From the IMG/VR virus record IMGVR_UViG_3300005914_000117, positions 1 to 22,252 of that record: DNA of 22,252 bases. One strand, written 5' to 3'. A program made the position numbers and the translations under genes. Source of the DNA: a virus. Below, one piece after another: positions 13,372-17,683 of this stretch (its first letter is position 1; every line of letters begins with the position of its first letter). The notes below the pieces were generated by a model. It was not told where the DNA came from. It did not search any database and saw only the letters and a list, made by a program, of their open reading frames with translations.

Positions 13372-13439
13372 TGAAAAAACTTTGGAACAAACTAATAGAC
13401 AAACTATTTGGCAAGAGATGTCAATGCGGTAAAAAATGA
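13371..13439 (+). CDS. Tiny ORF with CxC motif (22 aa)
   Basis: ATG 13371 overlaps the previous stop, and TGA 13437-13439 overlaps the ATG of the homing endonuclease (ATGA). The product is MKKLWNKLIDKLFGKR followed by CQCGKK, a basic amphipathic helix with a C-x-C tail. Overlap at both ends suggests that it is translated and couples its neighbours. It may be a genuine micro-gene or the truncated start of a longer gene interrupted by the endonuclease. No family is recognised. Confidence 0.4.
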   Translation: MKKLWNKLIDKLFGKRCQCGKK

Positions 13440-13969
13440 TAGTATATAAGATTACAAACGAATTAAATAGCCACAGTTATGTTGGATTTACATCGCAACC
13501 TATGATGAAAAGATTTAGATGTCATTTGGGAACTGCTAGACGTGGTGCGAAGTGGCCTTTACATAATGCTATAAGAAAATATGGCAAAGAGAATTTTAGT
13601 GTCAAAACCATATATGAGGGTAGTGATGCGTTTGAACAAGAAGATAAATATATTAAGAAGTATGGTTATTACAATATTATGCCAGGTGGAATAAAAACAC
13701 CAGTTGCGATAGGTTCAACAAGAACTTTCACACAAGAGTGGAAAGAGAATATGAGTAAGAGCGCAATAGAAAGAGCAAAGAGATTAAATACATCAGAAAA
13801 GATGTCAGGTGAAGGAAATCATATGTATGGCAAATTAGGTATAGGTGCCAAAGAAAGAATTTATAAAGGAAAAGTTTATAAGAGTTTAATAGAAATGTGT
13901 AAAGATTTAAATATAAGCAGACCGACTGCTAGAAAATACTGGAGAGTCGAAAGGGGGATACAGCTATAG
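13436..13969 (+). CDS. GIY-YIG homing endonuclease
   Basis: The 177-residue protein has an N-terminal GIY-YIG nuclease domain (about 1-90). It shows IVYKITN with SYVGFTS as the paired GIY/YIG strands, a conserved Arg in KRFRCHL, the catalytic Glu in FEQEDKYI (67 or 69) and GYYNIMPGG. A NUMOD3-type segment (SGEGNHMYGKLG, 123-134) and a C-terminal helix-turn-helix-like NUMOD element (YKSLIEMCKDLNISRPTARKYW, written in two parts as YKSLIEMCK and DLNISRPTARKYW) give DNA recognition. It is a free-standing mobile gene like T4 Seg proteins, sitting between a 22-codon ORF and gp54. No intron is evident. Its stop TAG 13967-13969 overlaps the apparent ancestral start codon of gp54. Confidence 0.9.
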   Translation: MIVYKITNELNSHSYVGFTSQPMMKRFRCHLGTARRGAKWPLHNAIRKYGKENFSVKTIYEGSDAFEQEDKYIKKYGYYNIMPGGIKTPVAIGSTRTFTQEWKENMSKSAIERAKRLNTSEKMSGEGNHMYGKLGIGAKERIYKGKVYKSLIEMCKDLNISRPTARKYWRVERGIQL

Positions 13970-14952
13970 CTATCTTACGAGGAGGAAAAAGAATTGGTGG
14001 ATACGACATACGAGTAGGTATACCCAGAGATCGCTCACTTGACAATGTAGAACGAGATCCAAGATTAAGACAGAAAGCTGGTGGTAATCCTGAAACTACT
14101 ATGGGTAGATTTCAAGCTTATGTAAATGAAGCTGAAGGCTTTGCTCGTAAGGCAAGATTTTATACAGAATTTTTCTTACCAAGAGGATTATCTTTTGGTG
14201 GAGGTGTTGGTGGTGAAGATACAGCTGTTAATGTTAAAGGAACTGGCGAAGGAATAGAAGCATTTAAATTGTCAGAAGAATTACAAGCAGTACACAATGC
14301 GAATGGTAAAAGAGTTAGAGCATTTTGTGCTGAAATAGCTATGCCAAATAGAGAAGTGGTGACAAAAGAAATTAGACATGGAAATTCTCCAGCTAGAAGT
14401 CATGTAGTAGATTTTAACTCAGCAGATATAACTGCAACATTTTACTTGGATAAGTTTATGAGAGAAAGATCATACTTTGAGTTATGGCAACAAGCAGCAT
14501 TTAGTACAACATCATTTAATAAAAACTATTACGACAATTATGTATCTGATATGAATATATTTGCGTTAGGAAGTTTTGCTAGCAGACAAGAGCGTGATGA
14601 TATAACATATGCAGTTAAACTATTTGATTGTTATCCAAAAAATATTAGTGCAGTTGAATTTTCACATGAAAACAACAATGTACAAACTTTCCAAGTGACA
14701 TTTGGATTTAGATATTGGGTTAATTACTTTATTGACAAAGCAGGTCAAATAGACTTAGGTCAATCAGAATTTGGAACACCTGAAGTAAAAACAGCAGGTG
14801 GACTATTTGGTGGATTATTAGGAAGACTACCACCAGAATTGAGAAGAGCAGGGCGTGATGTTCTTAACGATTTAAGAAGAAGAGCGCCAATCGGTAGAAT
14901 AACTGGTGGAAGAGTATTCCCACCATTTAAAATACCACCGTTAAATTTATAA
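13966..14952 (+). CDS. 54: Baseplate tail-tube initiator gp54, start codon apparently ATA
   Basis: The coding frame runs to TAA 14950-14952 and has protein-like sequence well upstream of the first ATG (14101): RGGKRIGGYDIRVGIPRDRS, then LDNVERDPRLRQKAGGNPETT. No ATG, GTG or TTG precedes 14101 in frame after the stop at 13930. The ATA at 13966, read IAILRGGK, is where an ATG would give MAILRGGK and a 328-residue product, close to T4 gp54 (320). AAGGGGG lies 8 bases upstream. ATT 13993, 7 bases after GAGGAGG, is an alternative. The core (EIAMPNREVVTKEIRHGNSP, FYLDKFMRERSYFELWQQ, VKLFDCYPKNISAVEFSH, VTFGFRYW) matches the gp54/gp19 tail-tube fold. gp54 starts tube polymerisation on the baseplate. 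The extreme C-terminus (GGLFGGLLGRLPPELRR onward) is a Gly/Pro/Arg-rich tail. Confidence 0.75.
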   Translation: MAILRGGKRIGGYDIRVGIPRDRSLDNVERDPRLRQKAGGNPETTMGRFQAYVNEAEGFARKARFYTEFFLPRGLSFGGGVGGEDTAVNVKGTGEGIEAFKLSEELQAVHNANGKRVRAFCAEIAMPNREVVTKEIRHGNSPARSHVVDFNSADITATFYLDKFMRERSYFELWQQAAFSTTSFNKNYYDNYVSDMNIFALGSFASRQERDDITYAVKLFDCYPKNISAVEFSHENNNVQTFQVTFGFRYWVNYFIDKAGQIDLGQSEFGTPEVKTAGGLFGGLLGRLPPELRRAGRDVLNDLRRRAPIGRITGGRVFPPFKIPPLNL

Positions 14953-14968
14953 TAAGGAGTAAGATATA

Positions 14969-15706
14969 ATGGCATTACCAAAGGTGGAAGCACCACGATA
15001 TGAATTGACTTTACCATCACAAGATATAAAAGTTAAATACAGACCATTTCTAGTAAAAGAAGAAAAGATACTTTTAATGGCTATGGAATCTCAAAAGGAA
15101 TCTGAGATATATGAGGCAACAAAACAAATTGTTGATACTTGTACATATGGTTCCCTAAATGTTGAGGAATTACCTATGTTTGATTTAGAATATCTTTTTT
15201 TGAACATAAGAGCAAAATCCGTAGGTGAAGTATCAAAGTTTAAAGTTTTATGTCCAGATGACAAAAAGACTTATGCTGATGTTGAGATTGACTTAACAAA
15301 AGTAAATGTAGAAGTAGATGATGACCACACAAATAAAATTATTGTGGACGAGAGTAGAAATTTAGGTGTAGTGATGAAGTATCCAACGATGCAGGTATTA
15401 AAGTCAGGCACAAATATAGATCAAGCGAATATGGAACAAGTATTTAATATGCTAGCCACATGCGTTGATCACATATTTGAGGGCGAGAAAATATATCCAG
15501 CGAAGGATAGTACAGAGAAAGAAATTAAGGAGTTTTTTGAAAGTTTATCGCAAGAAAGCTTTGCTAAAATTAAGAAATTTTTTGATACTATGCCAAGAGT
15601 TAGACACGAATTTGAGGTGACTAACCCTACGACTAATGTAAAAAGTAAGGTCACGCTTACTGGACTGAATGATTTTTTCGAATCAGCCTCGCCCATAATA
15701 GCCTAG
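14969..15706 (+). CDS. 26: Baseplate hub protein gp26 (T4_baseplate family)
   Basis: The 245-residue product has the family opening YELTLPSQDIKVKYRPFLVKEEKILLMAME, followed by TYGSLNVEELPMFDLEYLFLNIRAKSVGE and FKVLCPDDKK, as in T4 gp26/gp51-type proteins (PF12322). In T4 these act in assembly of the baseplate hub. The ribosome site AAGGAG (14954-14959) supports ATG 14969. Seven codons before the end lies a T-TTT-TTC heptamer (15673-15679). The -1 frame from there continues for 61 codons, so a longer fusion product is likely. Hub-assembly factor and tail-assembly chaperone are both possible roles. Confidence 0.8.
   Translation: MALPKVEAPRYELTLPSQDIKVKYRPFLVKEEKILLMAMESQKESEIYEATKQIVDTCTYGSLNVEELPMFDLEYLFLNIRAKSVGEVSKFKVLCPDDKKTYADVEIDLTKVNVEVDDDHTNKIIVDESRNLGVVMKYPTMQVLKSGTNIDQANMEQVFNMLATCVDHIFEGEKIYPAKDSTEKEIKEFFESLSQESFAKIKKFFDTMPRVRHEFEVTNPTTNVKSKVTLTGLNDFFESASPIIA
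15673..15679 (+). promoter_or_regulatory. Candidate -1 ribosomal frameshift site (T-TTT-TTC)
   Basis: In the gp26 frame the codons are GAT TTT TTC GAA. The heptamer T-TTT-TTC fits the X-XXY-YYZ rule for -1 slippage. After a slip, decoding continues at CGA 15679-15681 in an open frame, while the zero frame ends at TAG 15704-15706. No strong downstream hairpin was found by eye. Confidence 0.6.
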
Positions 15707-15864
15707 AGGCCTATTTTGAAGTCAATTTTGCGTTATTACATCATCATAAATATAGTTTGAATGAAGTAGAGAATATGTTGCCTTGGGAACGAGATATATA
15801 TGTTCAAATGCTAATAAATCATATTAAAGACGAAAACGAAAGACGAAGTAGAGGAGAGAAATAA
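15679..15864 (+). CDS. Minus-1 frame extension of gp26 (61 codons), probably made by frameshift
   Basis: The -1 frame is open from the codon after TGA 15670-15672 to TAA 15862-15864. It reads protein-like from the slippery site on: RISLAHNSLEAYFEVNFALL, then HHHKYSLNEVENMLPWERDI and YVQMLINHIKDENERRSRGEK in part. There is no ATG, GTG or TTG until deep inside (TTG within KYSLNE), so an independent start would drop the well-formed N-terminal half. With frameshifting the total product is about 298 residues. The L-x-x-HHKYSL...PWERDIYV pattern resembles the second part of tail-assembly chaperones (a helical segment ending in a conserved W-E element). The holin-like gene and then the tape-measure gene follow directly. 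Confidence 0.65.
   Translation, partial: RISLAHNSLEAYFEVNFALLHHHKYSLNEVENMLPWERDIYVQMLINHIKDENERRSRGEK
15745..15752 (+). promoter_or_regulatory. Weak candidate late promoter (CATAAATA)
   Basis: CATAAATA is one base from the late consensus; the 12-mer CATAAATATAGT here also occurs at 4989-5000. It lies within the gp26 -1 frame, 112 bp before the next gene, and could add late transcription for the holin-like gene and gp29. Motif evidence only. Confidence 0.3.
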
Positions 15865-16166
15865 TGATACAAAAAATTAAAAACATATTTGGATCAGGTT
15901 GGTCAGGATTTAAATACGGCATAAAACAACTATGGCATTTCATAGAGGTAGAAATACCTGAATTGCTTTCTAATTGGAGATTTGTACCAAGATTAATGAT
16001 GATAGCATATGCTTATGCTTTCATGGAAGTTATAACTTGGTTTATGGCACTAGAAGCACCTAACAACGCACAAGCAGGTTTAGTATCTGTTGTAGTTGGC
16101 GCAGGCGCTGGCTGGTTTGCGATATATGTAAACGGTAAACCATCTAAAGTAAAAAATAAAGACTAA
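15864..16166 (+). CDS. Small two-helix membrane protein, holin-like
   Basis: The 100-residue protein has an N-terminal amphipathic/basic part, then two hydrophobic helices at about residues 42-62 (LMMIAYAYAFMEVITWFMAL) and 68-88 (NAQAGLVSVVVGAGAGWFAIY). The helices are separated by a short polar turn, and the protein ends with a charged tail KPSKVKNKD. The size, two-helix layout and basic tail are those of holins, and the W-x-x-x-L...SVV-x-G-A-GAGW pattern recalls GTA-type 3TM holins. No other holin is visible in the window. Its location between gp26 and the tape measure is unusual for a lysis gene, so a membrane role in DNA injection is an alternative. It overlaps both neighbours by one base (TAATG). 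Confidence 0.5.
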   Translation: MIQKIKNIFGSGWSGFKYGIKQLWHFIEVEIPELLSNWRFVPRLMMIAYAYAFMEVITWFMALEAPNNAQAGLVSVVVGAGAGWFAIYVNGKPSKVKNKD

Positions 16167-17683
16167 TGGCAATAAAAGAATCAGATATTAAAGGTTTAAT
16201 GAAAGTGGTAATGTCTTCTACTATGAAGACTGTGGCTGCTGGTCAGAAAACTGTCATATCACCTACAGAAGTAAGAAACATTGCAATTCAAATAACGAAA
16301 GATGCTACAAGTGGTAGTATTACTAGATTTGAGAACGCACTTGCTCAAACAGAAAAGGTTTTAGACAAGTTAGATATTGATTTAAGAGATTTTAATTCTG
16401 GTCTAGCCAAAACACTAAAAGAAGCACAAGTCCAAAGAGATGATAAAATAAAAGAAGTTGAAACGCTTAGAGCTAGTAATATTGTTGCTGAGGTTAAAGC
16501 TGATAAACAAGGTAGAGAGTTTATGTACGAAACTCACATACTGACTAAAAAAGAAATAGCAGAACGAACAGAGTTATTACAAAAGAATAAGAGTCTTGCT
16601 GAAGATAGAGAAAAGAAAATTATTGCTAGAATGGACGAACTGTTATCGCAAGAAAAACTTTCTAATGATGATAGACAAGAAATAATAGAAGGCGAGAAAC
16701 AAATACAAGCTGATAAGTTAAAAATTGAAAGAGAAGATAAAACATTAAATCCATTGAAACCAGATGGCGATACTGGATTTGGACCTAGTAGTACATTTTA
16801 CGAAGAATTAAAAGCACCATTCATAGCTGTTGGAGATGCGTTTATGGCAATAGGTGACCTTGGTAAAGACATTATGAAGATTGGTAAGTTTTTTGCTGAT
16901 GGTGGTTTGATGAAAGGTCTAAAAGGTTTTAAAAAAGGTATAATGGCAATAGGTAAATTTTTAATGGGAACTAAAGTATTAATAGGTCTTGCGATTGCTG
17001 GTGTAATAGCTGGAATAGTATATTTCAAAGACGAGATAATGGCTGTAGGTAAGTTTATAATGGGTGTTCCTAAAATGATAGGTGATTTTATTAAGAAAGC
17101 ATTTACGGCATTTACAGATTTCTTTAAAATTGCAGTTAATACAGTTATTGGATTAATAAGAAAATTACCTTTCATGGGAGATTTTGGAACATTAATGGAA
17201 ACTTCTACAATGAAAAAGAAAAAAGAAGAAGCAGCAAAACAAGAAAGAATTAAAAAAGGTGCAGCAGACTTTACTGGTGATGTTGAAGCAAATACACAAA
17301 GTGGGTTTGTAGATAAAGGTGGATACCTGGAACCAATAAGAGAACAAGATAATGGATTTAGCGATAACGCAGGTATGGGTAATGAACAATCTAATGTTGT
17401 TTATGACAAAGGTACCAAGTCAGCAATAATGATGAATAGACAAGTTGTTGGAAACCAATTAAGAGGTTCAGGTGCAACTGGAACAGGTGATGCGTCAACT
17501 GCTAAAACTTTATTCCAAGAACAGAAACAATCTAAGATGTATGATACTGGCGAAGTCCCACCTGTCATATTAAATAATACAAATCAATCTAGTGTTAATA
17601 GTAGTGGTAGTACAACTGTAGGATTTGTACAGAATAAAAATGTTGACGATACATTTACAAATCTCAACTATGTAATGCCTTAA
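16166..17683 (+). CDS. 29: Tape-measure / baseplate hub protein gp29
   Basis: The 505-residue protein shows tape-measure features. There is a long charged coiled coil at about 55-200 (many Lys/Glu/Gln, e.g. EKVLDKLDIDLRDF, EIAERTELLQKNKSLAEDRE). Gly-rich hydrophobic segments follow at about 235-330 with repeated Phe/Met-Gly-Lys units (IGKFFADGG, AIGKFLMG, AVGKFIMG) and a strong membrane-like helix VLIGLAIAGVIAGIVYF. The C-terminal part is polar and low in complexity. Position after gp26 and before gp48 supports gp29, which in T4 sets tail length (590 residues). A shorter protein suggests a slightly shorter tail or a divergent form. The start is ATG 16166, overlapping the upstream stop. It ends in overlap with the oppositely oriented gp4 gene. 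Confidence 0.75.
   Translation: MAIKESDIKGLMKVVMSSTMKTVAAGQKTVISPTEVRNIAIQITKDATSGSITRFENALAQTEKVLDKLDIDLRDFNSGLAKTLKEAQVQRDDKIKEVETLRASNIVAEVKADKQGREFMYETHILTKKEIAERTELLQKNKSLAEDREKKIIARMDELLSQEKLSNDDRQEIIEGEKQIQADKLKIEREDKTLNPLKPDGDTGFGPSSTFYEELKAPFIAVGDAFMAIGDLGKDIMKIGKFFADGGLMKGLKGFKKGIMAIGKFLMGTKVLIGLAIAGVIAGIVYFKDEIMAVGKFIMGVPKMIGDFIKKAFTAFTDFFKIAVNTVIGLIRKLPFMGDFGTLMETSTMKKKKEEAAKQERIKKGAADFTGDVEANTQSGFVDKGGYLEPIREQDNGFSDNAGMGNEQSNVVYDKGTKSAIMMNRQVVGNQLRGSGATGTGDASTAKTLFQEQKQSKMYDTGEVPPVILNNTNQSSVNSSGSTTVGFVQNKNVDDTFTNLNYVMP

Follow-up and report, generated by a model that had tools for sequence, protein, structure and literature searches.

Organization of the gp26 locus

The stretch of DNA analyzed here (22,252 nucleotides from a marine T4-like virus, referred to below as the window) carries genes that fit a T4-like tail module, namely those for single-strand DNA binding protein, DNA end protector, tail-tube-like protein, gp26, an extension of gp26 in the -1 frame, a small protein, a putative tape measure, and head closure, tube cap, wedge and hub/lysozyme genes. 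The 0-frame product of the gp26 gene (14969..15706, + strand), a putative short, G-like chaperone (TAC-N), has 245 residues and matches PF12322 (E=1e-63) and phrog_150 (E=3e-70). Near its 3′ end the gene carries a slippery heptamer, T_TTT_TTC in the gp26 frame (codons TTT TTC; 15673..15679, + strand), and eight codons lie between the TTC and the gp26 stop codon, TAG, at 15704-15706. In the -1 frame a TGA at 15670-15672 directly adjoins the start of the heptamer, and therefore no upstream start could feed the reading frame that opens there. A -1 shift at the heptamer would add RISLAHNSLEAYFEVNFALLHHHKYSLNEVENMLPWERDIYVQMLINHIKDENERRSRGEK, terminating at the TAA at 15862-15864, and would create the junction peptide ...LTGLNDFFR. 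The extension itself (61 residues and a stop codon, + strand) is assigned to 15679..15864, its coordinates beginning at 15679 because the last base of the heptamer is read twice. In the window, the -1 frame reaches its first ATG, GTG or TTG (a TTG) only with residue 27 of the extension, and the stretch preceding any start codon is ISLAHNSLEAYFEVNFALLHHHK. The coordinates, the T-TTT-TTC heptamer, the open -1 frame and the 61-residue extension are as the initial annotation of this DNA had described them, as is the lack of a start codon that would keep the first half of the extension; its count of seven codons from the heptamer to the end of gp26 is corrected here to eight, counted after the TTC and before the TAG. 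An AF2 model of gp26 had a pLDDT of 87.9, with the tail beyond the slip site disordered.

Two further open reading frames on the + strand follow the extension. One encodes a small hydrophobic protein of 100 residues (15864..16166; phrog_10198, of unknown function, E=1.5e-16), whose ATG overlaps the stop codon of the extension and which lies between the candidate chaperone pair and the next gene. The other encodes a putative tail tape measure protein of 505 residues (16166..17683), so designated from its position and a weak match to a tape measure PHROG (phrog_5448, E=1e-5, ~87 residues). The initial annotation had placed a putative tape measure, gp29, one small gene downstream of gp26. Neither phmmer nor hmmsearch matched T4 gp29 to this protein. 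Directly 5′ of gp26 is a tail-tube-family protein gene (phrog_45; 14101-14952), whose counterparts in relatives are labeled either baseplate tail tube initiator or tail tube. A homing-endonuclease-like gene (13436-13969), with a GIY-YIG domain (PF01541, E=6.6e-6) and a weak NUMOD1 match, is inserted after the DNA end protector gene and ahead of the tail-tube-like gene. Elsewhere in the window this marine phage has a carbamoyltransferase gene (PF16861/PF02543; 6901-8394), apparently with an auxiliary metabolic or modification role.

Conservation of the slip site, the -1 frame and the downstream RNA

Scans of IMG/VR and a phage collection provided 261 usable related loci. An in-frame TTTTTT(C/T/G) is found 7-31 nt ahead of the gp26 stop in 259 of them; the site is exactly TTTTTTC in 238/261 and its phase is always X_XXY_YYZ. 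In every locus readable to its end, the -1 extension is open, over 55-68 codons. The slip site is conserved far beyond chance: it is present in 190/190 unique junctions, while among the 231 other Phe-Phe pairs of these genes, which served as an internal control, only 12 have T_TTT_TTY-like runs. The codon preceding the site differs among loci (AGT, GAT, TCT, AAT, or GCT), although its third base is always T, and therefore amino-acid constraint does not explain the site. Of the 246 nine-codon windows in the gene, one beginning just ahead of the slip has the least synonymous change (rank 1), in the window's group as well as in the P-SSM2 group. Past the dual-coding stretch, differences at codon positions 1, 2 and 3 of the -1 frame numbered 557, 244 and 954, a pattern by which the extension evolves as a protein in that frame beyond the dual-coding part. 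Sequencing error or a pseudogene was ruled out, since the same site is common to 259 of the 261 loci.

Phages carrying the site, with the same or nearly the same heptamer and a -1 extension in the same place as in the window, include the Kyanoviridae cyanophages, Pelagibacter phage Mosig, Methylophilales phage Melnitz, Schizotequatrovirus (KVP40-like), Aeromonas AS-zj (Emmerichvirinae), Sinorhizobium phiM7, Rhizobium P10VF, Acidovorax ACP17 and Stenotrophomonas Yut2. These loci differ from the window in that the gp26 stop is mostly 7-13 nt from the heptamer start (31 nt in the window and also in Mosig), in that their downstream stems are unlike in sequence and geometry, and in that they are recorded as two genes or gp51 is missed. 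Across the loci, the stop lies 31 nt from the heptamer start in 51 and ~10 nt from it in 205, and even close relatives differ in this. Both of the loci without the heptamer belong to the Ackermannviridae. The -1 extension is open in each, with non-canonical sequences at the junction: GAA ATT TTC ATT TAA in L098 (Salmonella phage Sajous1, near 2292) and GAG GCT TTC ATG TAA in L099 (Vibrio phage YC, near 2160).

Downstream of the heptamer, the window has a candidate stimulatory stem formed by GCCTC (15686..15690, + strand), which begins 6 nt past the heptamer, and GAGGC (15706..15710, + strand). The GCCTC...GAGGC pairing is present in 54 of 56 unique sequences of the window's group, and L022 shows one compensatory double change, from C-G to G-C. 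The window's own stem, of 5 bp with a 2-bp inner helix, is weak (z -1.0 to -1.7), and we regard it as only plausible. A stem after the slip site has good support in the cyanophages, being strong in many of them. Among unique loci, mean folding energy has its minimum at or just past the site (-11.1 vs. -5.6 kcal/mol for background), and in dinucleotide shuffles the cyanophages gave a z of -2.9 and the window's group one of -1.8. An 11-bp stem, spaced much as in the window, occurs in P-SSM2-type phages, where 75% of its cells are paired versus 27-48% when the stem is slid and 23 cells are double-changed; S-PM2 has a 14-bp stem and other phages carry different stems. RNAalifold found no single common structure in a mixed cyanophage alignment. 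A pseudoknot in the window (loop AATAG with CTATT), judged by eye, was dropped as its bases are not conserved.

Relation to the T4 proteins gp26 and gp51

A profile search with the 61-residue extension, which the initial annotation had proposed as a check, matched PHROG 634 (E=2e-27), and by this match the extension is a member of a known family, that of the T4 gp51 "baseplate hub assembly catalyst"; a Pfam scan of the extension by itself gave no match. Both phrog_150 and phrog_634 span the junction, because phrog_150 scores the fusion more highly than gp26 alone (272 vs. 238 bits) and because fusion residues 203-295 align with phrog_634 positions 24-114. No second copy of gp26 or of the extension was found elsewhere in the window's record, which is a 22-kb fragment only.

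In T4, gp26 (208 residues) and gp51 (249 residues) are encoded by separate genes on opposite strands, and Pfam assigns PF12322 to both proteins. In hhalign comparisons, T4-type gp51 aligned with the fusion profile through the junction and almost to its end (prob 99.4), whereas T4-type gp26 aligned with the short part only, the alignment stopping at the slip site (prob 99.5). When the gp26 and gp51 profiles were compared to one another the probability was 98.9. On these profile matches the short product is homologous to T4 gp26 and the long product to T4 gp51, and the two T4 proteins are paralogs, so that what T4-type phages encode in two divergently oriented genes corresponds to a single gene with a putative frameshift in the window.

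A tree of these proteins has three groups, the T4-type gp26 clade, the T4-type gp51 clade and the frameshift loci, with support for T4-type versus the rest of 94/95, slightly below the starred level. Schizotequatrovirus and Emmerichvirinae belong, like T4, to the Straboviridae, yet are of the frameshift type, and therefore the simplest reading would be that the T4-type phages exchanged the frameshift for a duplicated gene. We lean towards a history in which frameshifting is older and usual in the wider T4-like superfamily and T4 is derived, the pair having been duplicated into divergent genes, gp26 (equivalent to G) and gp51 (equivalent to GT), with loss of the frameshift, while elsewhere the stem was repeatedly replaced and the heptamer stayed fixed.

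A candidate tail assembly chaperone pair

The comparative evidence, namely the heptamer, the coding character of the -1 frame and the homology to gp51, strongly supports the proposal of the initial annotation that a programmed -1 frameshift produces a short and a long chaperone, and we consider it very probable that gp26 and its extension form a tail assembly chaperone pair of the G/GT type. We infer the frameshift itself, the slip efficiency, the short-to-long ratio, the role of the window's stem and the chaperone function to be as follows. Most ribosomes would read gp26 to the TAG at 15704 and produce the 245-residue protein, and a minority would move back by one base on U_UUU_UUC (15673-15679) and continue to the TAA at 15862, the RNA stem beginning six bases past the heptamer probably assisting the slip. 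The long product would have 298 residues and would end in the 61-residue gp51 (T-like) domain. If the pair acts as lambda gpG/gpGT does, the downstream-encoded tape measure protein would be coated by many copies of the short form and few of the long, and tail tube subunits would be recruited by the latter.

The resemblance to lambda gpG/gpGT and other long-tailed-phage pairs lies in a short form and a predicted long form extended in the -1 frame, a heptamer towards the 3′ end of the short gene and a position immediately upstream of the putative tape measure; in the lambda model, the short and long chaperones assemble on the tape measure (PMC5009743). In the window, by contrast, the short form is larger (245 residues, PF12322 family), one small gene separates the pair from the putative tape measure, and its proteins have no significant sequence or fold match to the lambda/HK97-type chaperones. 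PDB fold searches with gp26 and T4-type gp51 gave no significant match; in one, HK97 gp13 (2ob9) ranked fifth, with the top probability among the matches listed (0.20), a TM of 0.46 on the target and an E of 2.3. Phage Adele (Vandenendeviridae/Andersonviridae; PMC12846349) is similar in having a poly-T -1 slip site at the TAC-N end, upstream of the tape measure, and a downstream ORF mis-annotated as hypothetical. Its motif is GTTTTT and the phage families are others, and we liken it to the window by arrangement, not by protein homology.

A review from 2016 described G-T frameshifting as widely conserved among long-tailed phages "except T4" (PMC5009743). The gp26/gp51-type proteins of T4-like phages have since reportedly been recognized as tail assembly chaperones (Vladimirov, Gautam and Davidson, 2022, Virology 566:9-15, PMID 34826709), in a paper whose title proposes a mechanism other than frameshifting. 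Of the papers citing that study, one reports that in some T4-like phages the gene occurs in two copies, the one short and the other long (PMC10885494), and another that T4-like phages are known to have poly-T slippery sequences in their TAC-N genes (PMC12846349). The initial annotation was aware of no described G/GT-type frameshift at a T4-like gp26; according to these sources, the chaperone identity and apparently poly-T sites had already been published. The system is thus of a known kind, and some of its taxonomic distribution may also have appeared in print. In the literature we searched, in which Vladimirov et al. (2022) was represented by the papers that cite it, we found no description of a gp26/gp51 frameshift in cyanophages or pelagiphages.

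Most public annotations treat the extension as a separate small gene, gp51, with a start of its own and perhaps coupled to gp26 termination. Among 18 named phage records, 14 have a distinct short gene at the gp51 position, 4 omit it and none annotates a join. Possible starts for such a gene are an ATG at index 3 of the extension codons, in many P-SSM2-like loci, and an ATG overlapping the gp26 stop, in Vibrio, Rhizobium and Stenotrophomonas relatives. Neither the position nor the codon of the start is conserved. Against a separate gene, initiation at residue 27 in the window, or at the starts of its group (mostly at residue 19 or later, or none), would lose the conserved first part of the extension; the early-ATG cyanophages and Vibrio phages retain the heptamer, rather than having an ATG in place of a slippery sequence; and T4 gp51 is a full-length fusion with a gp26 domain and no 60-residue peptide. 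We consider independent initiation highly improbable. Joining of the frames by transcriptional rather than ribosomal slippage would draw on the run of six Ts (seven in some relatives) and on the downstream hairpin, which could also help a polymerase slip. Polymerase slippage usually needs runs of 8-9 or more, for which this run is short, and the constant X_XXY_YYZ phase, with TTTTTTC in 238/261 loci, is that of a classical ribosomal -1 site, and we consider transcriptional slippage a highly improbable source of the fusion.

The T4 names raise the question of whether gp26 and the extension are instead structural parts of the baseplate hub, and genetic work cited in PMC3004832 assigned gp26 to the hub. 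That same review, however, classes gp26 and gp51 as hub assembly chaperones, gp51 being required for assembly and missing from the particle, and Vladimirov et al. (2022), as cited, identify the T4-like tail assembly chaperones. The location ahead of the putative tape measure and the predicted short and long forms, with their common N-terminal domain, also suit a chaperone model, and we think a structural role very unlikely.

If gp26 and its extension are a chaperone pair, a widespread annotation pattern would be corrected, as the "gp26" and "gp51" of marine T4-like phages would be one frameshifted chaperone gene, of which the gp51 part is usually missed or entered as a truncated gene of its own. 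T4, which has long stood as the exception where G/GT frameshifting is discussed, would become a lineage with the same two proteins in two genes, and the short-to-long chaperone ratio would become testable between frameshift and two-gene phages. A gp51-type extension is present in the DNA yet unannotated in S-CAM8 (L088), metaG-MbCM1 (L083), ACP17 (L093) and Aeromonas AS-zj (L096).
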